IMG/VR virus record: IMGVR_UViG_3300042545_000962
Location: 1-25,691 of that record
From: a virus
Length of the DNA: 25,691 nt
Strand: one strand, 5' to 3'
Part shown: positions 2,804-23,989 of the stretch, in pieces
Layout of the letters: each line of letters begins with the position of its first letter
How positions within the stretch are numbered: position 1 is the first letter of the stretch
Translations under genes and position numbers: made by a program
Notes under the pieces: generated by a model
Seen by the model: only the letters and a program-made list of their open reading frames with translations
Database searches by the model: none
Told to the model about the DNA's origin: nothing

Positions 2804-3097
2804 TTACATATCCTCCATGGATACGTGTCTACCGTTAGGGTAGTATAGGTCGGTTAGCTCTTCTAGCTGATCTGGGGTTAGTTCGGTTCCGTCAACAAAG
2901 GTGGCCTTATCGATGAACCACTCTAGTCCGTTTCCAAAGTCGTCTTTACCTAGTTCAATAGAATCAAAGTTTACCTGTTTTCCGTCAACCATGTATTCCC
3001 CGTCTTTCATTTCGGCCGCTTCGTTTACACTTAGCGCCTTAGAGTTAGTAGTGAGTTTGTTCTCTACTAAGAATTTTTTTAAATCGAAATTGTTCAT
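2804..3097 (-). CDS. Small acidic head-module protein with capsid-targeting-like N-terminus
   Basis: This 97-residue acidic protein has an N-terminus (MNNFDLKKFLVENKLT) that resembles the capsid-targeting peptides of T4 internal proteins, with L-V-E at residues 10-12 as a possible gp21 site, although the following Asn is not the preferred residue. The rest contains MKDGEYMVDGKQVNFDSI and ends acidic. The gene sits immediately downstream of the protease gene, where T4-like phages keep small prohead core genes. The leader before the ATG is almost pure A (ten consecutive A), the type of A-rich initiation region used by Bacteroidota. I recognise similar small proteins in other T4-like phages but know no function. 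Confidence 0.75.
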   Translation of the reverse strand: MNNFDLKKFLVENKLTTNSKALSVNEAAEMKDGEYMVDGKQVNFDSIELGKDDFGNGLEWFIDKATFVDGTELTPDQLEELTDLYYPNGRHVSMEDM

Positions 3098-3117
3098 TTT
3101 TTTTTTATTTTTTACTT

Positions 3118-3696
3118 TTACGCTCTAAGAATGTCACCTATGATGTTGTGAAGCCGGGCGTAAGGATCTACTACCTGCTTTACCTCATTTAAGGAGACGG
3201 GGTTTAAAAATGCTCCGTGAGTGGAGGGATTCGATACGAAATCCCAACACACAAGTTCGAAGTCGTCCTTCACCATTAAGGTATTCTCACCGATGGGCTG
3301 GACTGAGCCTGTGCCTCTTGAAGAGATACCGATCGTATGACCGCCCTTGATGATTTCTTTCACGATGTTGCCAGCTGGGGTGTTCAGTAACTCAACCTTA
3401 CCCATTAGGTTATCTCCATCCCACCAAAGATCCTTCACCACGTGGGAAGCATTTTTTAGTGAGACGATAGGTGATTCCGGGTGATCTAACTCCCCGTATG
3501 CATTACCCACCTTAACGAAAGCTTCCATGTACTTCTTGACCTCTCTTGCAAGGATGTCTTTTTCGTAGATCCTTCCGTTTTGGTTCTTGGCATTGGCTCT
3601 CTGCATAACACCCACAACCTCGAAGATACCGGGTCTTTTTACGGACTCGGTGATCGTAGGACGGAAAGGGGTATATTCAATTAAGAGATTTGCCAT
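3118..3696 (-). CDS. 21: Prohead core protease, T4 gp21-like
   Basis: This serine protease acts inside the prohead to cleave the capsid protein, scaffold and internal proteins after (I/L)-x-E, triggering maturation. At 192 residues it is slightly shorter than T4 gp21 (212). The catalytic motifs are visible: GELDHPES around residues 69-75 with His72, and GISSRGTGS around residues 123-131 with Ser125 or Ser126 as nucleophile, matching peptidase families U9/S78. The N-terminal GVMQRANAKNQNGRIYEK motif is also typical. Its stop is 21 bases before the next gene, and its start is 2 bases after the stop of the 435-residue gene. Its presence gives direct meaning to the many L-x-E sites in neighbouring products. 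Confidence 0.95.
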   Translation of the reverse strand: MANLLIEYTPFRPTITESVKRPGIFEVVGVMQRANAKNQNGRIYEKDILAREVKKYMEAFVKVGNAYGELDHPESPIVSLKNASHVVKDLWWDGDNLMGKVELLNTPAGNIVKEIIKGGHTIGISSRGTGSVQPIGENTLMVKDDFELVCWDFVSNPSTHGAFLNPVSLNEVKQVVDPYARLHNIIGDILRA

Positions 3697-3698
3697 GA

Positions 3699-5006
3699 TT
3701 ATGATTCTAGAGTCTTCTTAATTAAAGACTTTACTGCTTCTTTGAGCTGGGTTTCTTGCTGCGAGTTAGATTCTAGTAGAAAAGGACCTGGAAGGTCTTT
3801 AATTATTTTAGCGAAATCTTCTTTCTTCCACGAGGGAAAGAGCTGGTCTTTTATATCACCTAATTTACCAGCTGCAAGATCTTTAAAATCTTTTAATTTT
3901 GTATTATAAGCGTGTTTACCACTATTCTTTAACGAATTTTTATAGATATCAAACTCCATAATGTGTTTTTCAAGTTCCTCCTCCGGTGCACCGTCGCCTT
4001 CTTCGAGCCGGGGTACATTCATCGTTCCTGAAATATCGTAAGTGCCGTCTTCTTTTTGTTTCGCAGATGAATCGTAATCAGTAGTGGTGGTTCTTCGAGG
4101 ATCGATACCGGGTTCGTTAACGTCATCTTCACTCATGTTTGGACTCTCTGCAAGGGCTTTAAGTACTTTCTCAAAATCTTCCTTCTTCCACTCTGGATAG
4201 TGTTCAGTTTTTGTATCAGCCGACTCACCAGCTGCCATATTTTCAAAATCTTTTTTTGCCTGCATTTTCCAAATCAAAGGATTTTTCTTATAGTGGTCTA
4301 TATTTCCTTGTATTTCCTTTTCAGATGCACCGTCACCTTCTTTATACTCGTACGAATAACCAGATCCTTCCTCTTCATCTTCGTACCCCTCTTCAAGCTT
4401 AAACTTGTTAAACTCTTTTTTAAGTTCGTGAGCAGACATCTTAACGTAGTGTGTAGGATTTGCAAGCACTTTTTTTCTAAAAGCTGCTCCTACGGAGGCT
4501 GGTTTCTCAGCTACTGTATCAGCAATATCTCCTAGCTTATCTTGAACTTTGCTAGAAGCGTTTCTCTCAACCCTGTCTAGAGCAGTCTCTTCACTTAGCT
4601 TTGCTTTCTCCATCTTCTCACCGGGTTCGGTCATGGTCTGGGCGTTCTTGTAGCAAAGAGGATCTTTGATAAGCTCTTTAGCAGCTTTCTCTTTTGCTTT
4701 TGCGTACTCTTCTTCTGAAGGAGTACCGGTGATGCCTGCAGCATGAAGCTCGGCTTCAATACCGTGATCCAAAAGATCCGGTGCAACCATGTCGATAGGA
4801 TCTACTTCTGGCTTCTTGTAAGCTGTTACTTCAGCTTTCTTAGCCTCTACCACCATCCCCTTGTTCTTAAGGATAGCGACGGTGTCTGCAAAGCTGTTGA
4901 ATTGGGTAATGAGGTTAGAGTGTGCTAGTCTAGCATCTCTTACGAATTGTACTTTAGAGAAGTTTCCTTCTAAAATAGCATTATATTTTTCTTGTAGTGT
5001 TTTCAT
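3699..5006 (-). CDS. Repeat-containing head-module protein, probably internal/prohead core
   Basis: The 435-residue product starts MKTLQEKYNAILE|GN, which looks like T4 internal protein I (MKTYQEFIAE|A) and carries an I-L-E|G gp21-type site at residue 13. Next comes a region with FVRDARLAHSNLITQFNSFA, a sequence I associate with conserved proteins beside the protease in marine T4-like phages. Two related acidic repeats occur at about residues 222-285 and 335-405, each starting EGDGA and ending P-x-WKKEDF. The rest is charged and probably helical. The start overlaps the upstream stop as ATGA. Probably a packaged or scaffold-associated protein; its specific function is unknown. Confidence 0.75.
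   Translation of the reverse strand: MKTLQEKYNAILEGNFSKVQFVRDARLAHSNLITQFNSFADTVAILKNKGMVVEAKKAEVTAYKKPEVDPIDMVAPDLLDHGIEAELHAAGITGTPSEEEYAKAKEKAAKELIKDPLCYKNAQTMTEPGEKMEKAKLSEETALDRVERNASSKVQDKLGDIADTVAEKPASVGAAFRKKVLANPTHYVKMSAHELKKEFNKFKLEEGYEDEEEGSGYSYEYKEGDGASEKEIQGNIDHYKKNPLIWKMQAKKDFENMAAGESADTKTEHYPEWKKEDFEKVLKALAESPNMSEDDVNEPGIDPRRTTTTDYDSSAKQKEDGTYDISGTMNVPRLEEGDGAPEEELEKHIMEFDIYKNSLKNSGKHAYNTKLKDFKDLAAGKLGDIKDQLFPSWKKEDFAKIIKDLPGPFLLESNSQQETQLKEAVKSLIKKTLES
3792..4343 (-). repeat. Two-copy protein repeat inside the 435-residue head protein
   Basis: Two diverged copies (coding for residues about 222-285 at 4152-4343, and about 335-405 at 3792-4004) share the order EGDGA, a Glu/Lys helix, a KDF-x-x-x-AAG segment, then P-x-WKKEDF. 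The spacer between them holds a Thr-rich strand. The repeat suggests an internal duplication of a small domain. Confidence 0.7.
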
Positions 5007-5221
5007 CTGAAATCAAACAATTTAGTGTTGGAAGGTCTCTTTGGTCTCTCTGTCTTAGTGTAACCAAAGCTCTTCATTGCGGTGACGGCTCTGTTGTCTT
5101 TTTTCCCTTTCGAAAAAGCGTAAGGGGTTTGGGGCGCTCCTATCGCTCCGGTGACGTTCATCTCGCTGAGCCGGTCTAGGATAAGTTCTCTGAGGAGCTC
5201 GGTGAATTTATGCTTTTTCAT
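5003..5221 (-). CDS. Small basic head-module protein, unknown
   Basis: This 72-residue protein has a helical N-terminus MKKHKFTELLRELILDRLSE (a possible L-S-E gp21 site at residue 20, followed by Met) and then a basic C-terminal part with a TGAIGAPQTPYAFSKGKK segment. Short proteins with a similar T-G-x-x-x-x-x-TP[FY]AFS motif after a variable leader occur in other T4-like phages, as far as I recall. It is coupled by ATGA overlaps to genes on both sides and lies between portal and protease, the region where T4 has gp67 and gp68. No function can be assigned. Confidence 0.7.
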   Translation of the reverse strand: MKKHKFTELLRELILDRLSEMNVTGAIGAPQTPYAFSKGKKDNRAVTAMKSFGYTKTERPKRPSNTKLFDFR

Positions 5222-6072: not shown

Positions 6073-6091
6073 GAGTATGTAAGTCTACTGA

Positions 6092-6099
6092 TATAAATA
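6092..6099 (-). promoter_or_regulatory. TATTTATA box before the 284-residue head protein
   Basis: An exact copy of the intergenic octamer lies four bases after the portal stop codon and 19 bases before the next ATG. Context on the coding strand is CATATATTTATATCAG. It belongs to a set of six sharing orientation and placement. Confidence 0.45.
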
Positions 6100-6103
6100 T
6101 ATG

Positions 6104-11325: not shown

Positions 11326-11894
11326 TATAGTCCTGCGAATACGTCCTCTCCAGCTCCGGGGGTAGTTGCGGGGGTTTCTGCTCCTGTCTCGGCTCCTGCT
11401 TCAGCACCGGCATCAGCACCGGCATCAGCAGCCGGTTCAGGTGCTCCTGCTCCTGCGAATACATCTCCTCCTGCTCCCTCTTCTCCTCCTAATGCATCCA
11501 TTCCTGTCTGGATTGGACCGTGAGAGAGAATGATGCCGATCTTGTCGAGTGCCTGCTGGTACTCCGGTAGGTTGGCTAGGTAGTAGCGCTTGCCCTCGAT
11601 ATTGGCTTCAAAATTCTTACCCATCCACTTTAAGACCATATCTTGTCCGGACTTAAACTCTACCTTGAACGTAGAGGGTTTAGGGGACATCCATCCTACC
11701 TTCTCTACAAATTGCATGTACTGAGGGGTTAGGAGGTGGGTGAGAGTCTTTTGGAGGGTAGGAAACTTACCGAGAATATTCAATGTAGGGTCTGTTTGGT
11801 CCCTCTTCGGTCCTTGGACCGGGGGCTGGGCAGCCTCAATAAGCACCTCAAAGTATGCCTCTTGAATTATATCTTTAAGCTTATTTAGTTTCAT
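11325..11894 (-). CDS. Capsid-targeted-type protein with Ala/Gly/Glu low-complexity tail
   Basis: This 189-residue protein starts MKLNKLKDIIQE|AYFEVLIE|AAQ. Two good gp21-type sites occur in the first 21 residues (IQE|A at 12, LIE|A at 20), the clearest double site in the window. A folded middle domain (about residues 45-130) with FPTLQKTLTHLLTPQYMQFV is followed by a low-complexity tail of Ala, Gly, Asp, Glu, Pro and Thr. The tail holds two copies of a DVFAG motif, one at the start and one at the C-terminus. It is likely an internal head protein; no enzyme motif is visible. It is coupled by ATGA to the gene upstream and TAATG downstream. Confidence 0.75.
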   Translation of the reverse strand: MKLNKLKDIIQEAYFEVLIEAAQPPVQGPKRDQTDPTLNILGKFPTLQKTLTHLLTPQYMQFVEKVGWMSPKPSTFKVEFKSGQDMVLKWMGKNFEANIEGKRYYLANLPEYQQALDKIGIILSHGPIQTGMDALGGEEGAGGDVFAGAGAPEPAADAGADAGAEAGAETGAETPATTPGAGEDVFAGL

Positions 11895-12961
11895 TTCTTC
11901 TTAGAATGCTGGGCGATTGCTGCGCCGATCTTAACTCTTCTACCTTTGAGGTACTTATCAGTCTTGTCTACTTTGCCGTCGTTGTCGATATCTTCATCTT
12001 CATGACCGACCGGGTCTAGTTCTTTAGCTTTTTTTTCTTCTGCCAAAGCCTGATCCATTGCAGGTTTAGCTAGTTCAAATTCAAGGTAGTGCTTGGCGCT
12101 GCTAACCATTGAGTTTGCTTTTGTGATTTTAGACTGCCACCAGGCTGGAAAATCAACTTCAGCCTCACTGTCAAACTGGTCTACCATCTTATAAAGCTCG
12201 ATAGCGTATTTTGCGATCTGGTAAAGCTCTGATTTAATCATATGCGGTTCGTGATCCTCATGTCCTAGGTCTAAATCTTCATCTAACGATTCAGCAAACA
12301 TATCGTTAACTAATTCTTGAGCCATTGAGTTTAAATCAATCTTATTATTGCCACGACCCATATTCCAAACACGCCCTAATGCAATTTCAAGATAACTAAC
12401 TCGATCATCTGAAGGAATCATAGCTTCTTCGGCTGTAATTGTGTCTCCTTTTTGAGCATTATCAATTTGCTTTAAAAAGTCAGGGTTTGCTACACCAGCT
12501 CTCATTGCTGCTTCTTTTGCCCGTTTTTTTGATTCTGGATCACTTATTACAGTGACCTCAACTTCAGTTAACACTTCTTTAATAGCTTTTAAAATATCTT
12601 CTTTTTTCATCTTTCCTTTGTTTGGTGCTACGAAATAGGCATCATCGCCGTAAGTTGATAACCCTTCTTTGAAAGGTCTTGGGCAAGGGGTTCCTTTGAC
12701 GTGAGTATGTCCGCATCTTCCGCAATATGTAGCTTTCTTTTCAGTCAGTACTTCTTTAATGGCTTTTAAAATAGCTTCTTTATTCATCTTTGATTTTTTT
12801 TTAGCTACATTTCTATTTTCCTTATAAAAATCTTTAAGTTCTTTAGTGGAGAGATTGCTTATTAGTTTATCGTCTTTTACTTTTTTTAGAAAATCTTCAA
12901 CGGTTTCCGAGTTAGTCGCATGAAGAATAAGGTCCCCTAAGTCGCTTTCCTGCAGCTTCAT
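11891..12961 (-). CDS. Multi-segment head-type protein with duplicated targeting peptide, zinc-ribbon-like and Ca-loop-like motifs
   Basis: The 356-residue protein begins MKLQESDLGDLILHATNSE and then contains two nearly identical peptides, MNKEAILKAIKEVLTE (59-74) and MKKEDILKAIKEVLTE (118-133), each looking like a capsid-targeting N-terminus with an L-T-E site. Between them is CGRCGHTHVKGTPC (80-93), a zinc-knuckle-like cluster. The C-terminal half has a helical domain (about 238-300) with MIKSELYQIAKYAIELYKM and AKHYLEFE, a pattern I recall from conserved T4-like phage proteins. It ends with DEDIDNDGKVD (322-332), a dockerin/EF-hand-like calcium loop, then a basic tail. It looks like a mosaic built by cassette fusion. 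Function is unknown. Confidence 0.72.
   Translation of the reverse strand: MKLQESDLGDLILHATNSETVEDFLKKVKDDKLISNLSTKELKDFYKENRNVAKKKSKMNKEAILKAIKEVLTEKKATYCGRCGHTHVKGTPCPRPFKEGLSTYGDDAYFVAPNKGKMKKEDILKAIKEVLTEVEVTVISDPESKKRAKEAAMRAGVANPDFLKQIDNAQKGDTITAEEAMIPSDDRVSYLEIALGRVWNMGRGNNKIDLNSMAQELVNDMFAESLDEDLDLGHEDHEPHMIKSELYQIAKYAIELYKMVDQFDSEAEVDFPAWWQSKITKANSMVSSAKHYLEFELAKPAMDQALAEEKKAKELDPVGHEDEDIDNDGKVDKTDKYLKGRRVKIGAAIAQHSKKK
12563..12787 (-). repeat. Direct repeat encoding a targeting-like peptide twice within one gene
   Basis: Two 48-base direct repeats (12740-12787 and 12563-12610) match at 42 of 48 positions by my alignment. Each encodes ATG-K-(E)-(A/D)-ILKAIKEVLTE. The intervening segment encodes the Cys/His cluster. 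High nucleotide identity suggests recent duplication or recombination between related leader sequences. Confidence 0.8.
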
Positions 12962-13213: not shown

Positions 13214-13426
13214 TCACTGACAGTGATAGTTAAGGTACCTCTGCAGGGCTTTTGCATACGTAGTGCCTTTGTCTTTAAGTTTACCCCTAGCCGCTCTTAC
13301 TTTTGTACATGAAAGCTTACCTAGCCTCTTTTTGAGGATGCCTGGATTCATAGGATCGTGAATTCCTTCTGCCAGCACTTCGGCTGCTAGTTCCTGTATT
13401 AGGTTTGCGAATTCTGTATTTTTCAT
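13214..13426 (-). CDS. Small basic capsid-targeted-type protein
   Basis: I chose the ATG at 13426 because it forms an ATGA overlap with the upstream stop; an ATG two codons earlier is possible. The 70-residue protein has a helical leader MKNTEFANLIQELAAEVLAE|G with a clean L-A-E|G gp21-type site at residue 20. A basic Cys-containing domain follows (PGILKKRLGKL, then KGTTYAKALQRYLNYH). The removed leader plus compact basic remainder fits a small DNA-associated internal head protein, comparable in size to T4 internal proteins after trimming. I do not know a function. Confidence 0.72.
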   Translation of the reverse strand: MKNTEFANLIQELAAEVLAEGIHDPMNPGILKKRLGKLSCTKVRAARGKLKDKGTTYAKALQRYLNYHCQ

Positions 13427-13890
13427 CTCCATCCTACTACTTCATCATACTGTGCCTGAGTCCAGTATGAATAGTAATCTCCTGTTTTTAATCTATTAGA
13501 CGCCTGTGTTAGGTCACTGAGTGACTGTATTACATATAAATAACACCCATTAAAGGTTGTTCGATGACCGTTTACTGTAAATGGATTGCGAGGATCGTTG
13601 TCTAAGATTACTTTATCTTTAGCTTTAAACATAAAGTTAAGTTCTTTTATCTTCTGCTCCAACTCCTCTATAGTAAAATCTGTGTACTGCTTAAAATAGA
13701 AAATGCTTACATCGAATTCGGTAGTATCTACCCGGTCGATTAGCAGTTCTAAATCTTCTATGTTTGTTAGAGCAGTTATATCTACTCTCTTCTCTTTGAC
13801 TGCTTTAGCGGCATAAGGACAGATTGGACCGTTGCCAAGCTTGCCAGGCTCCTGGATATACTTTATCCACTCCTGGAGCTGGTCTTGCAT
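13423..13890 (-). CDS. Conserved phage protein with CPYA motif, unknown
   Basis: This 155-residue protein begins MQDQLQEWIKYIQEPGKLG and contains GNGPICPYAAKAVKEK near residue 20-35, then a mixed alpha/beta body with DNDPRNPFTVNGHRTTFNGC and a C-terminal segment rich in aromatic residues. The CPYA motif after a Trp-containing helix recurs in a family of phage proteins I recall but which has no assigned role. The single N-terminal Cys could be redox active or metal-binding with the later Cys; this is speculative. Coupled to neighbours by TAATG and ATGA overlaps. Confidence 0.68.
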   Translation of the reverse strand: MQDQLQEWIKYIQEPGKLGNGPICPYAAKAVKEKRVDITALTNIEDLELLIDRVDTTEFDVSIFYFKQYTDFTIEELEQKIKELNFMFKAKDKVILDNDPRNPFTVNGHRTTFNGCYLYVIQSLSDLTQASNRLKTGDYYSYWTQAQYDEVVGWR

Positions 13891-14303
13891 TATTCCTTAT
13901 CTTTGATCGGTCCTCCTACCACCCAAGCATCGCAAGTTCTAGAGGCTGCGCATTTAAACTTTAGAAATCTGCAGTATCCTAGCTCACCGGCATCAATCAC
14001 ATCGTAAGGATCTTCCGTACCCATGTCCGATCCGATGCCCTTGGCGATACAGTCTAGGGTCTTGGTCGTGATATCGAAAGCAGCACAAGTACCGCATACC
14101 ATATTCTTAAGCTCTTCAGCTGTATCGACCTGCCACATATCCATCTTCTTCTTCCAGAACTTTTCGTTCTTTTGGGAAGGGTCAGCAGGGCCGTATCCGT
14201 ATTCGTCAATAGCTTTCTGTCTGTTCTCAAGATTGAGGTCGATGTCTTGGGTTGCGGGAGGACATTTAACCTCCGCTTCGCTGATAAGTTTACTTAGCTT
14301 CAT
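13890..14303 (-). CDS. Cysteine-rich metal-binding-type protein with capsid-targeting peptide
   Basis: The 137-residue product starts MKLSKLISE|AEVKC, a textbook targeting peptide with I-S-E|A after residue 9. The body has seven Cys (14, 70, 73, 85, 111, 118, 124), including VCGTCAAFD and GYCRFLKFKCAASRTCDAW, a pattern similar to small high-potential iron-sulfur or zinc proteins. It may bind a metal cluster. If packaged, it would be a metal-binding internal head protein delivered to the host. It overlaps the next start by 14 bases. Metal type and role are not determinable from sequence. Confidence 0.75.
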   Translation of the reverse strand: MKLSKLISEAEVKCPPATQDIDLNLENRQKAIDEYGYGPADPSQKNEKFWKKKMDMWQVDTAEELKNMVCGTCAAFDITTKTLDCIAKGIGSDMGTEDPYDVIDAGELGYCRFLKFKCAASRTCDAWVVGGPIKDKE

Positions 14304-14511
14304 CTTGCTTGACGATTTGATCGTAATGATCCATTGTTAGAGTTTCACCTTCTGTGGAGAGTCTGATAGCGTTATCGGCTATAAAGTGTAGGTCTACGTC
14401 TGCTTGGGCATCTTCTCTCGCGTACTCCAGAAGTCTGATGAATAGGGGAATATCCAGAGTAACTTTGTCCTCCGGGTTGCTGGCTTCTAAGAGGAGGTCT
14501 ATTAGTTTCAT
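14290..14511 (-). CDS. Small capsid-targeted-type acidic protein
   Basis: This 73-residue protein starts MKLIDLLLE|ASNPED, the closest match in the window to the T4 internal protein leader (MKTYQEFIAE|A), with L-L-E|A at residue 9. The remaining 64 residues form a probable helical unit containing IPLFIRLLEYAREDAQADVD and a C-terminal LTMDHYDQIV. The EYAREDA segment recurs, as far as I recall, in small conserved phage proteins with different leaders. It is translationally coupled at both ends. Function unknown. Confidence 0.75.
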   Translation of the reverse strand: MKLIDLLLEASNPEDKVTLDIPLFIRLLEYAREDAQADVDLHFIADNAIRLSTEGETLTMDHYDQIVKQDEAK

Positions 14512-14705
14512 TTCTTTTCTTTTTTAAGAATCTCTTTTCCAGCCTTAACAGCATCTTTGTAAGCCTTGGAGTTAGGGTGAGATGGTTTTTCACCCCTTGC
14601 TCTTTGTGCTCTAATGTTAGCCCATAGTCCGGGTTTCTCCTTGATTACCTCTAGGAGTAGCTCACGCATGAAAGCGTGCATAGCAGATTTACTTACCTTG
14701 GCCAC
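14508..14705 (-). CDS. Small basic protein with GLWANIRAQRARGE motif
   Basis: The 65-residue product has a helical leader MAKVSKSAMHAFMRELLLE (L-L-E at residue 19, followed by Val, a weak site) and then KPGLWANIRAQRARGEKPSH, a motif shared with many small basic phage proteins of unknown role. It ends KEILKKEKK. The start lies inside the 3' end of the upstream 47-residue gene (17-base overlap) and the stop overlaps the next start by ATGA. Probably nucleic-acid-associated given its charge. Confidence 0.72.
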   Translation of the reverse strand: MAKVSKSAMHAFMRELLLEVIKEKPGLWANIRAQRARGEKPSHPNSKAYKDAVKAGKEILKKEKK

Positions 14706-15357: not shown

Positions 15358-15830
15358 TTGAGTTTTACTATTACACCACCACTAGTACCATATGGTTTTA
15401 CAATAGCATTAGGGAATTCATATTTAATATACCGTGTGTAAAGGTTTAATCTAGATACATTTGCAGTTTCACCTTCTTTTTTTGATGGGGTGAATGTTAT
15501 AGTATCAATTTCAGGGTGATTTTGAATATCTTTTTTAATAATAGCTGTTACAGTTGCCATAACTCTAAACAGTTCACCTTTATTTGTTACAATATCATCT
15601 CGTTCCAAATCCGGTTCATCTTCATCTGAGACATAGAATCTTACTCCTAATACGTTAGTTGTATCCTCGTCATAGAAATCTAAATCATCATATTGTAATT
15701 CTACAGTATATGGATAATTTTCAGTATAAAATCCATAAACTCTCATAACATCATAATCACCATAAAAATCAAATTTATATGGTTGAGAACTTGAGTCTCC
15801 TATTTCTTTTATAAGATCTATTAACTTAAT
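15354..15830 (-). CDS. AT-rich capsid-targeted-type protein, unknown
   Basis: I chose the ATG at 15830, four bases after the upstream stop, because it yields MIKLIDLIKE|IGDSS, a targeting-like leader with I-K-E at residue 10; a longer upstream start at 15869 would overlap the DUF5872-like gene. The 158-residue product is acidic with many Tyr and Asp (FDFYGDYDVMRVYGFYTENY) and a C-terminal segment SRLNLYTRYIKYEFP. The DNA is visibly AT-richer than its neighbours: in the sample row 15661-15720 I count 16 of 60 G+C, against 30 of 60 at 16261-16320. That may indicate recent acquisition. Function unknown. Confidence 0.72.
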   Translation of the reverse strand: MKLIDLIKEIGDSSSQPYKFDFYGDYDVMRVYGFYTENYPYTVELQYDDLDFYDEDTTNVLGVRFYVSDEDEPDLERDDIVTNKGELFRVMATVTAIIKKDIQNHPEIDTITFTPSKKEGETANVSRLNLYTRYIKYEFPNAIVKPYGTSGGVIVKLK

Positions 15831-15834
15831 CATA

Positions 15835-16764
15835 TCACCAGAAACCACCAAAGCTTGATTTAAGTCCAATCAACTTGGCGTACCTTGGGAGTCTGCAAGA
15901 CCAGTACCCGGGCTTGGTTTTATCGTTTTTCTGATCGCAGTTGTGACGGCTGGCAAAGTTACGGCGTGCTTCAGGATTGTTGATCTTAGCGGTCAGTCCT
16001 GTAGTGCCTCCGAAGTTAACTTTGATAGTTTTGCCGGTCTTAGGGTTGCGGGTGTAAACGAAGAACTTCTTAGGTCCTCCTCTTTTAGGTTTATTCAAAG
16101 CTACTTCCTTGCCCTGGTACTTAGCCTCGGCTAGTGCCTCGCTTGTAATGTCCACAACCCAGATATCGGGGTCGGGATTGGTACCTGAGTCAATCAGGCT
16201 GTGAAGGATATCTTCTCCTACTACGATCTCGTACTTTACTACTCCTGCCTCCTGGTACTTCAGGACTACGGGCATCTGGACCTGATCACTGTCAGTAAAA
16301 GTAACTAGCTCACCTGTTGCCGGATCTTCCATAACGGGGTCGATGTCGGAGTACTTTGCAGTATATCCGAATCCTCCGGACGCTTTGGATATATCAGAAA
16401 GCTTTTTCCACTGCTGTTCTCCCATCTTAAAGATCTGAGGATTTGTAGAGGCTTGAAGCCAGGTTGCTTCAGCGTCGGGGATTACAAAAGTAATCTCCTC
16501 TAGCATCGGGAAGTCTAAAGGTACTTTTTTACCTTCGAATTCTGCATACTCACCTACCTGGGTTTCAAACAAAAGCTCCATATCTTCTAGACATAGATTC
16601 TGTAGCAGACCTTCGTTCATAAGCAGACGTGCCTGACGAATAGTGTTGAAGTATTCCTCTGACCCTGGACGGTAAATATTCTCGTATAAAGGATTGCCGG
16701 TCTGCAAATGGTAGCGAAGACCTTCCGTTAGTACTGTCGTAACTTTTGACTCAGTTAAAATCAT
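15835..16764 (-). CDS. DUF5872-like C-terminal domain protein with capsid-targeting leader
   Basis: The 309-residue protein starts MILTESKVTTVLTE|GLRY, with an L-T-E|G gp21-type site at residue 14. The N-terminal two thirds are unrecognised. The C-terminal 60 residues (about 232-291) read KKFFVYTRNPKTGKTIKVNF, then ARRNFASRHNCDQK and a KPGYWSCRL motif, matching the DUF5872-type domain I recall from phages and large viruses. That domain has conserved R-H-N-C and Y-W-S-C residues, so could bind metal. The product is likely packaged in the head. The TATTTATA box lies 11 bases upstream of the ATG. Confidence 0.75.
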   Translation of the reverse strand: MILTESKVTTVLTEGLRYHLQTGNPLYENIYRPGSEEYFNTIRQARLLMNEGLLQNLCLEDMELLFETQVGEYAEFEGKKVPLDFPMLEEITFVIPDAEATWLQASTNPQIFKMGEQQWKKLSDISKASGGFGYTAKYSDIDPVMEDPATGELVTFTDSDQVQMPVVLKYQEAGVVKYEIVVGEDILHSLIDSGTNPDPDIWVVDITSEALAEAKYQGKEVALNKPKRGGPKKFFVYTRNPKTGKTIKVNFGGTTGLTAKINNPEARRNFASRHNCDQKNDKTKPGYWSCRLPRYAKLIGLKSSFGGFW

Positions 16765-16784: not shown

Positions 16785-17357
16785 TTACTCCAGGTGCTTC
16801 TTCAGGTGGTCAAGATATTGATTGACGTTCTTGATGATTTCGGCTTTTTGCCGGGCAGGATTGTTTCCCCAGTCCTCTACTGTACCGTCCTCGGTAACGA
16901 AGGAGATTGACTCTCCTAGCTGCTCGATCATCCATTGCTGCAGACCCTCAGCCCAGCCCTGCATGTTGCCTTGCATCATCTGCTTTTCATACTCCTGGTA
17001 TAACCCGGCTCGTCTAAGACCTGCCTCCATATCGATGGTACAATCAAAGCAAAAGCCGTGGATCTTATACATTTTTTTAGCCAGGTGATGGTTCATAGAA
17101 CCGCTGCATTTAGGGCAGATGAGCGGGGTCTGAGCTAGCTTCTTAGCACCGTCGAGTTTGGTGACATTCTGTCTAACACCGTTTTTAATGGTCCAGGTCC
17201 TACCATCTTCTAGCCAGGTTTCGCCCTCGGTATGCTTTTGCTTTACCTTCTCGTACCCTAAACCGACCATGGTCCGGCTGTTAAAATTTTTAGTGATGAG
17301 GTTCCGGGCTCTGTTTACAGCCCTCTCATCAAATTCCTTCTTTAGATGGCTTGACAT
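16785..17357 (-). CDS. Conserved phage zinc-ribbon protein
   Basis: This 190-residue protein has a four-Cys zinc ribbon (CPKC at 81-84 and CFDC at 103-106) embedded in a conserved block GETWLEDGRTWTIKNGVRQ ... LICPKCSGSMNHHL. That block is familiar from T4-like phages of aquatic bacteria. It likely binds nucleic acid or a protein partner; no catalytic residues are obvious. Its N-terminus lacks the targeting peptide. It overlaps the upstream HAD gene by 29 bases. Confidence 0.78.
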   Translation of the reverse strand: MSSHLKKEFDERAVNRARNLITKNFNSRTMVGLGYEKVKQKHTEGETWLEDGRTWTIKNGVRQNVTKLDGAKKLAQTPLICPKCSGSMNHHLAKKMYKIHGFCFDCTIDMEAGLRRAGLYQEYEKQMMQGNMQGWAEGLQQWMIEQLGESISFVTEDGTVEDWGNNPARQKAEIIKNVNQYLDHLKKHLE

Positions 17358-17889
17358 AACCTAGTGTTTCTAATCTTCTGATAATTAAGGTGGGATCCCC
17401 GTTCTTGGGGTGATAAATTCCTATTCCTCCGGCATCTTTCCATCTCTCGATAGTATCTTCCCGGTCATCGATCAAGATGTCATCGGGTCCGGAGCATTCT
17501 AGGTGCTTTTCTTTAGCTTGTCTAAAGATGATAGGAGGGATAGGATCAAGTTCTCTATTCGCCCACTCGACTTTCCCGTCTCTGGATGATTGCTCGGATG
17601 AAGGAGCGGTAAGTAAAGTAGGGTTAAAATCCTGGATGTGCTTCCATAAAACTTTCCCGTAAGGGGTCCATTCCATTCCTTCCCAGAAGATCTGCCCGAT
17701 CGGGGCGATGGCACTCCAGAACCCTGCCTTGCCTCTCCGTTCTTCATACTCGGCTGGAAGCATTTCAAAGTAGTGATCAAACCTCTGATCGAAGTCTGTC
17801 AGCACTCCGTCCATATCACAGTAGAGCTTGCCTTTAGGTTTTGGATTCTGCTCTTCTTCAGTAAGTAGTAAATCTGCTAATATTCCCAT
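17329..17889 (-). CDS. HAD-family phosphatase (5'-nucleotidase type) with capsid-targeting-like leader
   Basis: The 186-residue protein shows the HAD signature CDMDGVLTDFD with nucleophile Asp25 and acid/base Asp27, motif II Thr94 (LLTAPS), a Lys around 127 and motif IV ILIDDRED (Asp141/142). Cap features resemble small 5'(3')-deoxyribonucleotidases or polynucleotide phosphatases, so the substrate is probably a nucleotide or phosphate end. Before the catalytic domain is MGILADLLLTE|E, resembling the capsid leaders of neighbours, with L-T-E at residue 11. That would make it a head-packaged phosphatase, although Glu after the site is not the preferred residue. It starts 2 bases after the polyprotein stop. 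Confidence 0.82.
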   Translation of the reverse strand: MGILADLLLTEEEQNPKPKGKLYCDMDGVLTDFDQRFDHYFEMLPAEYEERRGKAGFWSAIAPIGQIFWEGMEWTPYGKVLWKHIQDFNPTLLTAPSSEQSSRDGKVEWANRELDPIPPIIFRQAKEKHLECSGPDDILIDDREDTIERWKDAGGIGIYHPKNGDPTLIIRRLETLGYVKPSKEGI

Positions 17890-17891: not shown

Positions 17892-20735
17892 TTAGTTAAG
17901 ATTTGGTATGCCTCCGATCTGAGGGATCCGGGCTTTAAACTTATCGTAGACTTCTTTCCTCTTCTCTATCGATATTACCCCGGTATCAACCAGGCTATCT
18001 AAGTACTGATCGACAGTTGACTGAAAGTCAGTCTTGTCGTAGTTTGCTTTCATGTAAAGTCCTTGGATGTTTGCATCCACTTCTTTAGGTAGCATGAAGT
18101 ACTTGTAGAATGTCTCTGGATTCTGTCTGATCCTCTTGCGCATGGCTAGGTCACCCCTCATCCATTTGGTGGGCTGGAGCTGAGCTCCGGACTGGGTAAG
18201 GTGTTCGGTCTCATGACGGATAAGATCGGTCAAAGTAGATTGGATCTTTTGAAGGATGCTAGCACCGTCACCGGGATTAAACGCTAGAATAATATCTAGT
18301 TCTCCGTCTTCTGATGAAGCTTCTCCGTCGATGTAGTACTCCCCGGGCTTGACCTCATTAGATTGAGCAAACTTTAGGTTAACTTCTACAGTGATCGGTT
18401 TACCGTCTTCTGTTCTTGTACCTTTCTCACTCTGGCTTGTGAACTTGCCCAGGTAAGCGGTCTGGTATTCAGTTGATAGCATAACTCCTAAAGGAGACAT
18501 CCCGTATTCCTTGGCAGTTTCAACGTCTTTCTTCTTAGGTTCTCTTAAGGTCTTAAGGTTATACCCTTTTAGCTTTTTACCCGATATTAAAACGTTTAAA
18601 GCATCGTTAACAGCCTGTCTAACATCAGCAACGATGGAGCGGTATTTAGTACCTTCTTCTAGGGTATCTTGATTTTTGATCGAATCCTCATACTCCCTCA
18701 TAAGCATACTTCCTTTAAAATGTGCCTCTTTTTCAATCTCGTTTAACGCTGAATCCTCCTGGGTGTTGGTGGTAGCAATCATCGGCAGACGTCCTTCTAG
18801 ATTCTGCATATGATGAATCATCTCATGACAAAAAGACCTCATGACGTCTTTGGGGTGACGGCCTGTCACATACAGCACGACTTCTTTCTTACCAGGATCA
18901 TACGTAGCAGTCTTACCAAAAGTCTTAGCAGCGTTTTCTTCATCTTGTCTGGTTTTGATCTCCGGTAGCGGGACTACCTTCATACCTTTAGTTATCATAT
19001 GCTCCAGTATCCCGGCGATATACGGTACGTAGTTGAAGTACGTTCCTAATTCGTTGATGGGTTTTTGCTGGGGTGTAAAGTCAGCAGGTCCTGTCGGTTC
19101 AGCCTTGTTGTAGATCATCGGGGTAATGACGATCGACTGACCGTTGAAATCAACGATGACATCATCCGGGGCTAAATCCCGAAAGTAAACCGTAAGGTCT
19201 TGCATCCTTTGACGGACTACCGATGGGACGACCGAGATCGGGGTGACGGGGGTACCCATACTAACTTCCGAAGTCTCTTCTTGCTTTTCAGCTTTTTCTT
19301 TTTTGCTTTCTCCTAGGAAGTTACTAAATACATCATCGATGGCTTCAGCCATTTTGTACTCAGGAGTTGCTTTTAAAATTCCGAGTACTACTTTTTTATC
19401 GTCTGCTGAAAGTTCTTCAGGCATCCATTGACCTGTTTTTAGGTAGTCGGCATCTGTTCTGACTGTGGTAGCAGATAGTTTTTCTTCGTTGATCGTTGAC
19501 ACAATTTTTAATTTTGCTTTATCGTAGAAATTGTCTTTGTTGAGCTGTAAAGCTTTAAATTTACCTGCATCTCCCGGATCGCTAGAAGAACCTACTACGT
19601 AGTCTTGCTTTGGGTTAGCTTCGATCTCCTGGTAGATTGAAAGGATAGGTGTGATCGGAGCGATTTCAATCTCGGTAGGCTTACCTAAGTACTTTGCATA
19701 TACCTCCCAGATCTCTTTTGACTGCTGAGCTGTGATTATTTCTCCTTCTCTGATCCTACCACCGATGTAAATCTTAATTAAATCTACATCCTTGCCTAGC
19801 TCTTTAGCGATGTGGAAGTGACCGCGGTGAGGTGGCTTAAAGCCGCCCCCATAAAGTCCGATCACAGTTCCTTCTGCTTCAGTTAGCGTTTGAGCAACGG
19901 CCGCTAAAGCCTTCTCTTTATTATCTCCTTTAGGAGTACCTACTTCCCCGGACTTAACCGATACCATTGAGCGGAAGATTCCCGCTACGCGGTTCTTGCT
20001 TCTAGGATTTTTTAGCGAGCTTGTGACCTGGTCTAAAAGTTTTTCAAAAGGCTGGCTTAAATCAAAGTCCTTAAGAAGGTTTTTAATATCCTCCCAGTTA
20101 TTGGATTTCCAAATCTCTTCTCTAGCTACTTCTTTAAAGTTATCCAGAGTTACTTTTCTAAGGGTTAAATTTACACTAGAGAGGTTGAATTCATATTCCT
20201 GATTTGCTTCTAAAGGCGGTACGTTCTTGATTCCCAGACGGGCAAATACTTCGGCCGGATCCTGCTCCAGCAGCGCAGTCTTAACTAATCCTAAGATCAA
20301 ACCCTGCACTTCTGCGGGTAGGTCTAGGAATGAGTTCTTAAACTGATGCTCTACTTCTGAAAGCGATACCATGATATCTACCTGAATAGATTCACCGGGT
20401 GCTCCTTTGATAGGATACAGTACTGAGATGATCTCTCCTGAATTGTAGAATCTTTTACCGGCATACCTCTCGCTCTTAAAAGGTATAATCAAGGAGTCCG
20501 GCATCTTTGATACCGTATCGATGATCGCCTGCTTGGCTACTTTCTTATCATCATACTCAAAGGTAGCGATAATGTCTAGGTCACCGAAGTCAGGCTTTGA
20601 ACCTGCTTTCACGCTCCCGGAAAGACTAGAGACTTTATAGCCCGGGATCTTACTGAGTACCTTCTCAGTAAAATCGTTAAACGTATCCTGGACGTTCTGT
20701 CTCTTGATTCTATTTCCTCCTGCTACACCGCTCAT
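17892..20735 (-). CDS. 947-residue multi-enzyme protein: nucleotidyltransferase, cytidylyltransferase-like, and two metallopeptidase-like domains
   Basis: Four modules are visible in order. Residues 1-280: a Pol-beta-type nucleotidyltransferase with G40-S41, D52/D54 (GDLD) and D120. Residues 287-470: a cytidylyltransferase/NMNAT-type Rossmann domain with GGFKPPHRGH (297-306) and SATTVR (421-426). Residues 500-690: a zincin-like domain with CHEMIHHMQNLEGR (H637, E638, H641) and downstream Glu. Residues 695-947: a second zincin-like domain with RHETEHLTQ (H841, E842, H845). Between modules lie TLTE|A (286), FLGE|S (476) and TLEE|G (694), each matching the gp21 cleavage rule. The cytidylyltransferase and first peptidase modules are familiar from marine T4-like phages. 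Activities are inferred from motifs only. ATGA-coupled to the upstream nucleotidyltransferase. Confidence 0.85.
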   Translation of the reverse strand: MSGVAGGNRIKRQNVQDTFNDFTEKVLSKIPGYKVSSLSGSVKAGSKPDFGDLDIIATFEYDDKKVAKQAIIDTVSKMPDSLIIPFKSERYAGKRFYNSGEIISVLYPIKGAPGESIQVDIMVSLSEVEHQFKNSFLDLPAEVQGLILGLVKTALLEQDPAEVFARLGIKNVPPLEANQEYEFNLSSVNLTLRKVTLDNFKEVAREEIWKSNNWEDIKNLLKDFDLSQPFEKLLDQVTSSLKNPRSKNRVAGIFRSMVSVKSGEVGTPKGDNKEKALAAVAQTLTEAEGTVIGLYGGGFKPPHRGHFHIAKELGKDVDLIKIYIGGRIREGEIITAQQSKEIWEVYAKYLGKPTEIEIAPITPILSIYQEIEANPKQDYVVGSSSDPGDAGKFKALQLNKDNFYDKAKLKIVSTINEEKLSATTVRTDADYLKTGQWMPEELSADDKKVVLGILKATPEYKMAEAIDDVFSNFLGESKKEKAEKQEETSEVSMGTPVTPISVVPSVVRQRMQDLTVYFRDLAPDDVIVDFNGQSIVITPMIYNKAEPTGPADFTPQQKPINELGTYFNYVPYIAGILEHMITKGMKVVPLPEIKTRQDEENAAKTFGKTATYDPGKKEVVLYVTGRHPKDVMRSFCHEMIHHMQNLEGRLPMIATTNTQEDSALNEIEKEAHFKGSMLMREYEDSIKNQDTLEEGTKYRSIVADVRQAVNDALNVLISGKKLKGYNLKTLREPKKKDVETAKEYGMSPLGVMLSTEYQTAYLGKFTSQSEKGTRTEDGKPITVEVNLKFAQSNEVKPGEYYIDGEASSEDGELDIILAFNPGDGASILQKIQSTLTDLIRHETEHLTQSGAQLQPTKWMRGDLAMRKRIRQNPETFYKYFMLPKEVDANIQGLYMKANYDKTDFQSTVDQYLDSLVDTGVISIEKRKEVYDKFKARIPQIGGIPNLN

Positions 20736-21643: not shown

Positions 21644-21651
21644 TTTTTTTA

Positions 21652-21688
21652 CTATTTATCTACCTAAAGATAGGCTCTTTATAAATAG
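21652..21688. repeat. Inverted repeat in the gap before the nucleotidyltransferase
   Basis: An 8-bp perfect inverted repeat (CTATTTAT at 21652-21659, ATAAATAG at 21681-21688) brackets a 21-base spacer that itself contains a CCTA/TAGG mini-stem. One arm is part of the TATTTATA box. It could form a hairpin in the leader mRNA or an operator. Confidence 0.6.
21680..21687 (-). promoter_or_regulatory. TATTTATA box before the nucleotidyltransferase
   Basis: Exact octamer in GCTATTTATAAAGAG on the coding strand, two bases after the stop of the RecB-like nuclease gene and 36 bases before the next ATG. It coincides with one arm of the inverted repeat. Confidence 0.48.
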
Positions 21689-21689
21689 C

Positions 21690-22472
21690 TTACAACTTTA
21701 CCGATAAAGGATATGTCTGAAAGGATGGTTCATCGGCAGGATGCTCTAAAAGGTAGAGTTTATAGATGAGTTGGAATAGTTCAAAGTTCTCATCGATGTT
21801 ATCAACTACTTTAAGCTCCCATCCCTTACCCTGGAATGCTCCGTCCTTGCTAGAGGCAGTTCTCTTAGTTGATTTTAGCCAGATAATACCTGTCCGGTCG
21901 ATCTTCTGCCCGTACATCTCTTCCCAGGCCTTGGCGTAAGCCGATAGCTGTAACTCGTGAGACTTATGCAAAGAATTAGAAGTCTTAATATCCAGCAACC
22001 AAACCTCATCACCGATCTTGGCAATGATATCAGCAGTACCGGCATACTTATGGACGTCTGAGAAGGTAAATTCTTCGGTAGCAATGACGTCAGGGTCCAT
22101 GGCCTTCCAAGCTTCAACGAACTTATTGATCATCTGCCATACCAGCAGCGAGTACTTAGCCTTGCCGTAATCATCCATCCACTGGACTTCCCCGCCTTTG
22201 ATCAGCTCCTCGGCTGCATTGTGGACTGCCGTCCCTTCTTCACCTGCCCTTCTCATGATGAGATCGGCATTATGCCCTACGTCCTTAATCCACTGCTCAA
22301 AGAACTTATTTTTGGGCATGTACTGCAGGATCGTAGTAACGGAGGGGTAATAAATGCCTTCGCCTCTTCTGTAAACCCGGCGGTCCGGCAGAGTGATCTG
22401 CTTTAGCTCTCCGTCGAACTGAATGCGTTTTTGCTTATGCTCTAAAAGAAAATTGGAACCTGGATAAATCAT
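21690..22472 (-). CDS. PD-(D/E)XK exonuclease, RecB/Cas4-like
   Basis: The 260-residue protein shows the RecB/Cas4 nuclease motifs in order: GTAVH (His84 region), EEFTF, GTADI with Asp148, LLDIKTS with Asp161 and Lys163, and LQLSAYA with Gln175. Such enzymes degrade or trim DNA ends and in phages often work with replication or recombination proteins. No Cys cluster for an iron-sulfur site is visible, unlike Cas4 or AddB, so an iron-free RecB-type nuclease is more likely. The gene is ATGA-coupled to the primase gene upstream, supporting a role in DNA replication or repair. Confidence 0.87.
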   Translation of the reverse strand: MIYPGSNFLLEHKQKRIQFDGELKQITLPDRRVYRRGEGIYYPSVTTILQYMPKNKFFEQWIKDVGHNADLIMRRAGEEGTAVHNAAEELIKGGEVQWMDDYGKAKYSLLVWQMINKFVEAWKAMDPDVIATEEFTFSDVHKYAGTADIIAKIGDEVWLLDIKTSNSLHKSHELQLSAYAKAWEEMYGQKIDRTGIIWLKSTKRTASSKDGAFQGKGWELKVVDNIDENFELFQLIYKLYLLEHPADEPSFQTYPLSVKL

Positions 22473-23392
22473 ACGAAAGCTAATTTGTGTCGGAGGAGGT
22501 CACTGAAAGTCAGCTCCTGGGACTGTTGAATATGGTGGGTGAAAGTAGTAAAACCCATCTGTGAAGGATCTTTATCGATCATGTCAACAAGGAACACTCG
22601 TTTACCCATAGCAAGGAATTGCTCAGAGTACCGTAGCGCACTTTTTAAAGCATCTTTATCCAATGCTATATAAATGTCTTGAACCTTGTTTGACACTAAT
22701 TTTAACATTAAACTCTTAGATAAGGACTTACCTAGGATCGGGACAGCATTACGTTTAACAGCCATGGCATCGAAGACTCCTTCAACTAAGATGACGGGCT
22801 GGTCCCAGTTAATTAAATTCTCAAATCCTATCACATCCTTGGATGCGGGAGGATTCTTGTACTTAAAATAATTATTCTCAAAGGTCCTGCCAACGAAAAA
22901 GTTTAGCTGATTATTTTCATCGTATGAAGGTACGATGATTCTTCCAGCATAATCTCCGGTGGTGCAGTAGCCGATGTTATATTTTAAAAAGTCGTTCTCG
23001 GTAAGACCTCTATTGTAGAGGTAGTTCCTGATCTTGTTTGCAATAACGGAAGTCCGGGTGGCGGTAGTCAATGCCTGAAACTCTTTAGGAAGTTCTACAA
23101 ACGTGACTTCGTAGTCAGCTGTCTCTCCTTTCCTGACAAGTCTTAAGACCTGGTTAGCTTCATCCTTACCAAGCTTCATCTGCCTTAGCAGAGACTTAAC
23201 AGTCCTACCTCTAGCACTACAAACCCAGCACTCCCACGGATTCTCCCCCTTCTCGTTAGTACTCAGCTTGATCTCAAGCTTGGGTTTGCGATGGTTGCAG
23301 AACGGACAACTAAATGCATAGTTATCCCGGGCCCTCTTATTAGATTTCCCCAGTACGTTCTCGATTGCGCTTAGCAGTATAGGATTCTCCAT
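22469..23392 (-). CDS. DNA primase (zinc-finger plus Toprim), gp61/DnaG type
   Basis: This enzyme makes RNA primers for the lagging strand. At 307 residues it is close in size to T4 gp61 (342). An N-terminal zinc finger is built from Cys29/Cys32 (CPFC) and Cys55/Cys58 (CWVC). The central part includes YLYNRGLTENDFLKYNIGYC, a DnaG-like region, then VPSYDENNQLNFFVGR. The Toprim catalytic acids are Glu204 (LVEGVFDAM) and Asp245/Asp247 (ALDKDA). Start is at MENPILL; the 57-base gap upstream contains no clear promoter. It is coupled to the RecB-like nuclease. Confidence 0.92.
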   Translation of the reverse strand: MENPILLSAIENVLGKSNKRARDNYAFSCPFCNHRKPKLEIKLSTNEKGENPWECWVCSARGRTVKSLLRQMKLGKDEANQVLRLVRKGETADYEVTFVELPKEFQALTTATRTSVIANKIRNYLYNRGLTENDFLKYNIGYCTTGDYAGRIIVPSYDENNQLNFFVGRTFENNYFKYKNPPASKDVIGFENLINWDQPVILVEGVFDAMAVKRNAVPILGKSLSKSLMLKLVSNKVQDIYIALDKDALKSALRYSEQFLAMGKRVFLVDMIDKDPSQMGFTTFTHHIQQSQELTFSDLLRHKLAFV

Positions 23393-23449
23393 GCGGAGGC
23401 ATTACATAGTTATAACCTTAATATAAGAACGAAACCGCTTGTAACCAAC

Positions 23450-23989
23450 TTAATAGTCGATAAGCTTTATATCACCATCGGCGGTTGCCATTACGTTGTT
23501 GTCATCTCCGAACATATCAACTTCTTCAGGATCAATGCCGGTTTGAACCAGCTCCTGCCTTGCACCGATAAAGACCTTCTGCAGGTACGGGGATAGGTCT
23601 GAAAGCAGGCTCTTATCTCCTTCGCTAAAGAACTGATCTAATATATGAACGTTCTTCTCAATTTCCTCAGAGTATTCTTGAGAGACCGGCTGTAGGTTTT
23701 CGATTTGGTACCAGCCTCCTTTTTCCATCTTTACTGCCTTACCGATGTTTGCCAGGTATTTAAATTTTTTACCCTGGGCTTTAATCATAGCCTCCATTTC
23801 GATGTCATCCTGGGTGATTTTTACAAGGTACCCTTCTCTAGGTTCGTACTCTAATTCCGGTACAGGTTTGGGTGCACTATAAACAACCCCTTGAGATCCT
23901 ACTCCTACATCAGTAGCTCCAGCTGCTTTAAAAGCATCTTTAATTTTAGAGTAAGTGCTCTCAGTAAGAAGTGCTTGGATTAGTTTCAT
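23450..23989 (-). CDS. Short kinase-fold-like protein with capsid-targeting peptide
   Basis: The 179-residue product begins MKLIQALLTE|STYSK, with an L-T-E|S gp21-type site after residue 10. The body resembles the nucleotide-binding parts of protein kinases: a glycine loop VGSQGVVY (29-37), LVKIT with Lys57, a helix with Glu64, and at the end GDDNNVMATADGDIKLIDY, comparable to the D-x-x-x-N-V ... L-I-D-[FY] metal-binding motifs of ABC1/aminoglycoside kinase-like proteins. The protein stops right after this last motif, so the usual C-lobe helices are missing; it could be a minimal kinase, pseudokinase or unrelated fold. If correct it would be a head-packaged kinase-like effector. Moderate confidence in the fold. 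Confidence 0.68.
   Translation of the reverse strand: MKLIQALLTESTYSKIKDAFKAAGATDVGVGSQGVVYSAPKPVPELEYEPREGYLVKITQDDIEMEAMIKAQGKKFKYLANIGKAVKMEKGGWYQIENLQPVSQEYSEEIEKNVHILDQFFSEGDKSLLSDLSPYLQKVFIGARQELVQTGIDPEEVDMFGDDNNVMATADGDIKLIDY

Follow-up and report, generated by a model that had tools for sequence, protein, structure and literature searches.

Leaders that target proteins to the capsid are already known from the phages T4 and P1. The capsid-targeting sequence (CTS) of T4, which is borne by the internal proteins IPI-III and Alt, was reportedly described by Mullaney and Black in 1996, and the propeptide of T4 gp24, MAKINELLRE, is cut after Glu10. A comparable arrangement is found in the IMG/VR virus record IMGVR_UViG_3300042545_000962, positions 1 to 25,691 of which (25,691 nucleotides in all) are referred to here as the window. 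The window covers the head genes of a T4-type phage, which form a block on the minus strand with gp23 at the start, followed by the scaffold, a gp21-type protease, the portal and the terminase, and, upstream of the terminase, a string of small genes that likewise lie on the minus strand. In this virus and many of its relatives, dozens of unrelated proteins seem to carry removable address tags, i.e. N-terminal leaders that probably cause them to be packed into the virus head and delivered to the host. It is very probable that these leaders are modular CTSs: cargo would dock through them on the prohead core, the protease would then cut them off, and the cargo would be injected.

With the T4 CTS, the leaders of the window share a short N-terminal position on several unrelated proteins, an end of the gp21 type, (I/L)xE, and the context of a T4-type head with an S77 protease. 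They comprise 9-26 amino acids (aa) and form an extension outside the functional domain. The differences lie in the leader sequences themselves, in the presence of several exchangeable leader families and in the far larger number of bodies, that is, the protein parts behind the leaders. A preliminary description of this DNA, made from the letters alone, had likened the leaders to those of the T4 internal proteins, a likeness that did not survive comparison: at a cut of at most 50 of 1000 shuffles, the leader of T4 ipI (alone of the internal proteins) passed with 0 of 13 peptides. Therefore, the leaders are grouped with the CTS by their apparent way of working and not by homology. Four window leaders passed the same cut against the gp24 N-terminus, uncorrected for 52 comparisons, that of the gene at 5003 giving the best value of 0 of 1000 (window genes are named by their lower coordinate). 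The gp24 propeptide resembles the window leaders in length, make-up and end, but belongs to a shell protein rather than to cargo.

In the available text of the papers cited here, T4 internal proteins are reported to co-purify with gp22 and to be targeted to the core by their propeptides (PMC9026906); according to the same paper, IPIII with Asp in place of the P1 Glu still enters the head but is not cut. The T4 leader is stated not to be found in other core proteins (PMC9958956), and T-even ip genes are said to have been found through their signal (PMC12373910). The accessible account of P1 describes an N-terminal capsid-targeting signal in DarB, the first 30 residues of which suffice for head packaging of a reporter; P1 differs in that it seems to be without a separate scaffold and that one cargo was shown (PMC9024508). 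In phiKZ and SPN3US, internal proteins, including ejection proteins with propeptides, are processed by the prohead protease and two paralogues have an identical N-terminus, whereas several propeptides exceed 100 residues, the cut motifs are AxE and SxE, and the scaffold counterpart is unconfirmed in the part of that paper that is available (PMC5694885). Polyvalent proteins (Iyer et al. 2017) are multi-domain, presumed injected effectors for which the accessible text describes no leader (PMC5512222); in the phages considered here, (I/L)xE sites often stand ahead of the domains. No paper describing the leader families, their exchange or the match to the scaffold tail reported below was found in the open literature, subscription papers and most preprints lying outside it.

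Leader families

Among isolates, Flavobacterium phage vB_FspM_immuto_2-6A (immuto) was the nearest found, with a terminase 75% identical to that of the window; use was made of the existing annotation tables for its whole genome and of the N-terminal 34 residues of its 239 proteins. In immuto, long leaders recur on unrelated proteins. Family F1, M(E)NF(D/N)L(K/R)KFLVENKLTxNS(K/R)xLxE↓ (the arrow marks the predicted cut), is found on immuto genes 3, 179, 194 and 195 as well as on window gene 2804, and F3, MKKQILSEQFRRMQKLAGIITE↓ with the core RMQKLAGII, on immuto genes 41 and 188 (41 with MQFLAGI). The F2/F4 leader types of immuto read MKKSQLRxIIKE and MKLIDLLxE.

IMG/VR was scanned with DNA patterns for F1 and F3, and the figures given for these two families are samples that cover the matches listed. 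The positions fixed by the patterns (in F1, KFLxENKLT; in F3, MQKLAGI together with the final E of the leader) are conserved by construction, and therefore only the other positions and P1′, the residue after the cut, count as evidence. Some F1 matches arose by chance (e.g. L156, L161, L178, L191, L204, L220); a few of these are still in the body-component count, whereas any that lacked the motif at residues 6-9 were excluded from the conservation profiles and end-site counts. The same leaders stand on bodies without blastp similarity to each other: 243 tagged bodies (not dereplicated) fell into 106 blastp components, F1 being present on 52 and F3 on 61. Pfam searches with 102 tagged representatives returned 23 families, each on one protein (best E 2.1e-6). 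Among 111 distinct places, F3 lies at most 40 residues from the ATG in 101, internally in 6 and C-terminally in 4. Its pattern occurs in at least 120 viral stretches, compared with one match in the genome collection, which falls in no open reading frame (ORF) of 60 aa or more. In the cultured-phage collection, the F1 and F3 leader peptides were found only in four immuto records, and the F2 consensus gave no match there, a query so short that the result is uninformative. With one sequence per body family, F1 conservation at most non-pattern sites amounts to 2.3-4.5 bits within the leader (about 1.5 at a few variable ones) and falls to 1.1-1.6 bits at the last four leader residues, 0.64 at the next and about 0.3 thereafter. 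AT-rich motifs such as ATATTTATAA are located upstream of a number of F1 and F3 genes (e.g. L107, L128, L223, L268) and are perhaps late promoters.

Exchange of leaders and internal sites

Six components unite F1-tagged and F3-tagged proteins with homologous bodies by direct cross-homology (best E 1.5e-39, 1.4e-11, 4.3e-10, 3.9e-56, 4.8e-22 and 6.8e-30; one case was aligned), i.e. the leader has been exchanged over one body. In immuto h176, a third leader type precedes a body that by eye resembles an F1-tagged one. Homologues of the window genes likewise carry differing leaders over the same body. Directly ahead of the GLWANI, PGILKKRLG, PLFIRLLE, NT5C and AFSK domains, [ILVM]xE is present in 47 of 51 divergent N-termini, or 47/52 if one NadR case is counted as well, compared with 0.10-0.28 in controls (where an ORF meets a contig end, a few assignments as N-terminal or internal are guesses). 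An alignment of leaders versus bodies in related phages had been proposed as a check in the preliminary description, and its outcome, leaders that diverge over conserved bodies, speaks for the reading of the leaders proposed there. Where the five domains or NadR occur internally, the motif stands in front in 15 of 19 cases (control 0.21-0.39). Therefore, what is a lone tagged protein in one phage is part of a longer protein in another, mostly behind a cut-type site.

Leader copies are also found within proteins. Of eight members of the h194 family that were inspected, seven begin with an F1-like leader (the eighth, L151, starts otherwise), and all eight carry a further-in F1 copy, after which the protein either ends or continues into a second body that varies. 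A 947-aa window protein, 44% identical to its immuto counterpart, has AQTLTE↓AEGT ahead of a NadR-like domain and is possibly a packaged polyprotein. This protein (17892-20735, minus strand) combines a nucleotidyltransferase-like N-terminal part, the NadR-like domain with GGFKPPHRGH and, by eye, metallopeptidase-like motifs (HEMIHH and HETEH).

Scaffold tail, protease and predicted cut sites

One leader family shares its core with the end of the scaffold protein. This protein is named gp22-type because of its position, and the order gp21-scaffold-gp23 and an acidic composition are apparent on reading. It ends in ...VITE....V.RMQKLAGIIK. Among 59 scaffold homologues, 10 of which run off a contig, a RMQKLAGI-type core lies at most 16 residues from the end in 44 of 46 distinct complete C-ends, the other two having RMQILAGI. 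Outlying scaffolds, namely those of Microcystis phage Mel-JY01 (VERMKKLAGIVK) and the 484-kb record LR756508 (SRMQKLADIS), keep this core. The immuto F3 leader matched the window scaffold tail better than 1000 of 1000 shuffles, and four proteins other than the scaffold also bear the F3 core at their C-terminus. That tag and scaffold share a peptide suggests that cargo may enter via the contact used by the scaffold ends.

Around the two outlying scaffolds, further genes were seen. In Mel-JY01 (L386, 18284-18511), a ribosomal protein S21 gene is annotated between prohead protease and scaffold, and a similar-looking basic protein lies ahead of the scaffold in L387, the 40 kb around the scaffold of LR756508. 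Many small proteins of L387 start like MK(L/I)(T/S)E.KLR..(I/V)(K/R)EE; these tagged-like proteins near protease, scaffold and gp23 look like the same idea in a distant huge-phage lineage.

An S77 protease was detected in 26 of 30 records that we selected from 340 loci, long contigs for the most part; leaders had guided the choice of 26 of the 30. Among the leader-selected records, it was present in 22/26, and in 14/14 of those of at least 70 kb. The leader ends match those of gp23 propeptides, [ILV]xE: [ILVM]xE closes the F1 leader in 49 of 51 families (3 of 51 in control windows), and gp23-like propeptides in related loci end in ENQAKQI(V/I)xE↓ or close variants. P1′ of gp23 is A in 15, Q in 6, S in 5, G in 4 and L in 1 of 31 matches, the L probably being spurious, and P1′ of F3 is S in 22, N in 16 and G in 11 of 61. 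Sites followed by N, M, V, I or E had been regarded as weaker, and perhaps uncut, in the preliminary description. Since N at P1′ is common in F1 and F3, the doubt about N sites is weakened, and sites before V, I and M stay uncertain.

Excess beside the head genes

Leader-like N-termini accumulate next to the head genes. In immuto, [ILV]xE with E at residues 5-22 occurs in 20 of the 32 genes that make up the head block without protease and scaffold, versus 46 of 204 genes elsewhere (Fisher p 1.1e-5), with 0.30 for internal windows in both gene groups and 0.33 and 0.24 for shuffled N-termini. Six genomes or long records of 155-173 kb (G016, G023, G002, G019, G003 and immuto), in which the 27 kb upstream of gp23 were taken as the head region, all show this excess, both with the simple pattern (p 0.034 to 2.4e-6) and with P and G barred from the leader (p 0.020 to 2.7e-5). 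Summed, the simple pattern is present in 105/177 head-region and 311/1103 other genes, and the P/G-barred helical leader in 72/177 and 149/1103, respectively; since orthologues are not independent, the p of about 1e-15 for the sums overstates the significance. With a background of about 22-30% for the bare (I/L/V)xE pattern, a single site proves little, and a chance-level (I/L)xE match alone was discarded as evidence. A motif-free test points in the same direction: within-genome pairs of N-termini from non-homologous proteins with a score of at least 34 numbered 17, 12, 11, 10, 17 and 20 in the six genomes in the above order, versus 4, 7, 5, 1, 3 and 6 for internal stretches. Tail proteins, and enzymes whose N-terminal folds are common, are likewise found among the top N-terminal pairs.

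Leaders and predicted cargo in the window

The preliminary description had listed twelve window genes with a common type of leader. All twelve ORFs are present with leaders as described, subject to corrections, and about ten hold up as leader-bearing from sequence comparison, 15354 on little evidence (Table 1). Its central notion, shared leaders on about a dozen unrelated proteins, was too narrow in number: the sharing stands, and the set is much larger and includes leader families that had gone unseen. Sites in gene 14508, two internal copies in the 11891 gene, the scaffold tail and gp23 itself were additionally recognized. The idea of a T4-like capsid-targeting leader removed by a gp21 homologue is well supported by the S77 protease, the exchanged leaders, the gp23-like ends and a detached leader in the model of the kinase-like protein.

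Table 1. Leaders, cut sites and related features of the window (↓, predicted cut).
Feature	Coordinates	Strand	Support or remark
End of gp23 propeptide, ENQAKQIIKE↓ANATGG	715..744	-	
Scaffold in gp22 position	912..2288	-	ATG at 2286-2288; between gp21 and gp23; family alignment
Scaffold tail VITETNQAVLRMQKLAGIIK	915..974	-	same core as F3 leader family
Leader MNNFDLKKFLVENKLTTNSKALSVNE↓ of 2804 gene	3020..3097	-	F1 family
gp21-type prohead protease (Peptidase S77)	3118..3696	-	Pfam S77 E 9.6e-34
N-terminus MKTLQEKYNAILE↓ of core protein 3699-5006	4968..5006	-	site kept along with body
Leader MKKHKFTELLRELILDRLSE↓ of 5003 gene	5162..5221	-	13/14 divergent N-termini
Leader MKLNKLKDIIQEAYFEVLIE↓ of 11325 gene	11835..11894	-	homologue comparison
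Second internal leader-like repeat MKKEDILKAIKEVLTE↓ in 11891-12961	12563..12610	-	
First internal leader-like repeat MNKEAILKAIKEVLTE↓ in 11891-12961	12740..12787	-	
Leader (...EVLAE↓GIHDP) of 13214 gene	13367..13432	-	6/6 divergent N-termini, one cut by contig end
Leader MKLSKLISE↓ of 13890-14303	14277..14303	-	homologue leaders MKLLDILNE↓, MSNFDLRKYLAE↓, MRKLTNILLE↓
Leader MKLIDLLLE↓ of 14290 gene	14485..14511	-	site in 2/3 divergent N-termini
Leader ...MHAFMRELLLEVIKE↓ of 14508 gene	14637..14705	-	absent from preliminary list
Leader MIKLIDLIKE↓ of 15354 gene	15804..15833	-	few homologues, weak
Leader MILTESKVTTVLTE↓ of 15835-16764	16723..16764	-	homologues with divergent leaders
Leader MGILADLLLTE↓ of 5′ nucleotidase (HAD/NT5C)-like gene 17329-17889	17857..17889	-	PHROG 2643 match begins at residue 19
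Predicted mature kinase-like cargo domain	23450..23959	-	model mean pLDDT 90.1
Leader MKLIQALLTE↓ of kinase-like gene 23450-23989	23960..23989	-	pLDDT <50 at residues 1-9

The model of the 23450 protein shows a leader that is disordered and detached, the fold beginning at about residue 11, directly after the predicted cut. The protein is, as judged from the model, a kinase-like domain with the fold of a kinase N-lobe and catalytic-loop region. Foldseek returned protein kinases at a probability of 1.00 and E 1e-4, with a TM score (query) of only 0.35-0.49, and VIA-align a middling Z of 8.8 over 125-136 residues (rmsd 4.1-4.6); the best 50 matches listed in each were all kinases or kinase domains. 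As the sequence stops at an IKLIDY stretch, most of the C-lobe is missing. Homologues of 23450 bear the leaders MKLTQALLTE↓ and MKLSRIILE↓. The product of 17329 is, by its sequence, a 5′ nucleotidase-like HAD protein, and its NT5C domain follows [ILVM]xE in 17/18 divergent N-termini. The 14508 protein, which begins ...LLLEVIKE↓KPGLW, belongs with the GLWANI domain, ahead of which the motif occurs in 9/10. The 14290 domain is also found inside longer proteins, the 13214 body recurs at the C-end of immuto h191, and the C-end of the 841-aa immuto h192 by eye looks homologous to the 11325 gene. The 15354 gene was listed from a TTG; its leader, MIKLIDLIKE↓IGDSS, begins at an ATG 12 codons further in, and the true start is probably at 15833.

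Two of the twelve genes fell away. In 10270 (MDLVDKIIKE↓WSWR), which was rejected as a leader-bearing cargo gene, the relatives listed show the sequence little altered across the presumed site (DK..xEW(S/A)(W/F)R..KGYPD, with W at P1′), apart from two that are without the site, and hence its start is an ordinary conserved N-terminus. In 3699 (MKTLQEKYNAILE↓GNFSK), a conserved core protein, site and body are conserved together in relatives that match from the N-terminus; a stretch from its interior is found as a lone protein behind an F3 leader in L322 and L245.

Elsewhere in the window, two overlapping genes upstream of the terminase (9586-10261, minus strand), one with a signal-peptide-like and the other with a membrane-anchor-like start, resemble an embedded spanin pair. 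The protein at 23986-24438 (minus strand) carries YGFIYQITHTPTNKKYIGKK and is presumably similar to a GIY-YIG nuclease. Rfam gave no match on the window at the gathering threshold.

Proposed route and alternative explanations

According to the route that we infer, each cargo protein would be made late in infection with a short helical leader that docks it on the prohead core. One leader family would dock via the same peptide as the scaffold end, its cargo being taken in like scaffold. Once the shell is closed, a gp21-type protease would cut after (I/L/V)xE, as in gp23, and the cargo, freed inside the head, would then be injected with the DNA and may act against the host.

Several points weigh against this route. 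The literature search found no virion proteomics for these phages, and the accessible part of a paper on Baltic Flavobacterium phages (PMC7077304) contains neither virion proteomics nor the word immuto. An S77 protease went undetected in 4 of the 30 records (fragments of 37-68 kb). P1′ of F1 (N12, D7, V6, A5 and E5 of 49) is looser than that of gp23, and F3 conservation declines gradually after the E (1.65, 1.51, 1.06, 0.95, then 0.33 bits). Homology of the scaffold to T4 gp22 is not apparent from sequence (hhalign prob 3.8, E 0.011), and scaffold tails vary between F, W and M at a position where the scan fixed M in the leader, so that covariation of tail and leader is not judgeable. Enzymes rather than leaders account for most of the top N-terminal pairs in G023, and the model of one body with exchanged leaders, L171, is poor (mean pLDDT 43.7). 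Finally, an F2-like N-terminus (LIKEAVREAIREEL) occurs on a small immuto protein (gene 157) that adjoins a baseplate gene, with look-alikes in four other genomes (G002 6872, G003 125870, G016 40006 and G019 158323). This protein does not fit a capsid-only tag and is left unexplained by the capsid-tag model; a leader may thus not mean the capsid only.

Conceivably, the leaders recruit building parts of the core that are degraded like gp22, gp67 and gp68 instead of being injected. The match of the F3 leader to the tail of a scaffold would suit such a role, as would the position of several tagged proteins (2804, 5003, 3699 and the h194 family) among core genes. Yet the tagged bodies are highly diverse and include folded enzyme-like domains (nucleotidase, kinase-like) that would hardly serve as scaffold, which makes this explanation rather unlikely. 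The baseplate neighbour and its look-alikes could instead mean that the leaders sort proteins to another phage structure such as the tail, a membrane or an infection compartment, cutting being incidental; given the clustering beside gp17-gp23, the identity with the scaffold tail and the protease-type ends, we consider this improbable.

Very little is left for two further explanations. The high background of the bare pattern would allow the leaders to be ordinary conserved helices of each domain with (I/L)xE by chance, an outcome that the preliminary description had named as its own refutation and that holds for 10270. In the families tested, however, it is largely excluded by the exchange of leaders on homologous bodies, by divergent leaders over conserved bodies and by the disordered leader of the kinase-like model. 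Similarly remote is the view that a DNA or mRNA element, for example an expression cassette, is what recurs, the peptide being a by-product. Some upstream 12-mers are indeed shared by up to 4-5 body groups, compared with 2 in shuffles, and codons are restricted at several F1 positions. Codon variety of the F3 leaders, however, is about that of the bodies, and hence the peptide rather than the DNA seems to be kept; moreover, the F3 core recurs at the C-terminus of the scaffold and of four other proteins. A capsid-targeting role of the leaders remains by far the preferred reading.

Significance

On balance, and with considerably more reserve, the leaders may reflect a general address-tag system of large T4-type phages, in which the terminal peptide of the scaffold and at least two other exchangeable leaders serve as removable import tags. 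A gene that lands behind such a leader would become an injected effector, and some cargo would be synthesized as polyproteins, each split by the head protease into several effectors. The proteins that a phage injects are the first to act in infection; T4 Ip1-3, according to the available text of PMC12373910, block type IV restriction. Most injected proteins are difficult to detect, their bodies having few relatives. With a readable leader, their discovery becomes a search: at least about 100 body groups are flagged in uncultivated phages, few of them with a Pfam domain. The identity of leader and scaffold tail offers a testable answer to the question of how leaders work in these phages, and the leaders themselves are possible packaging tags for Flavobacterium phages.

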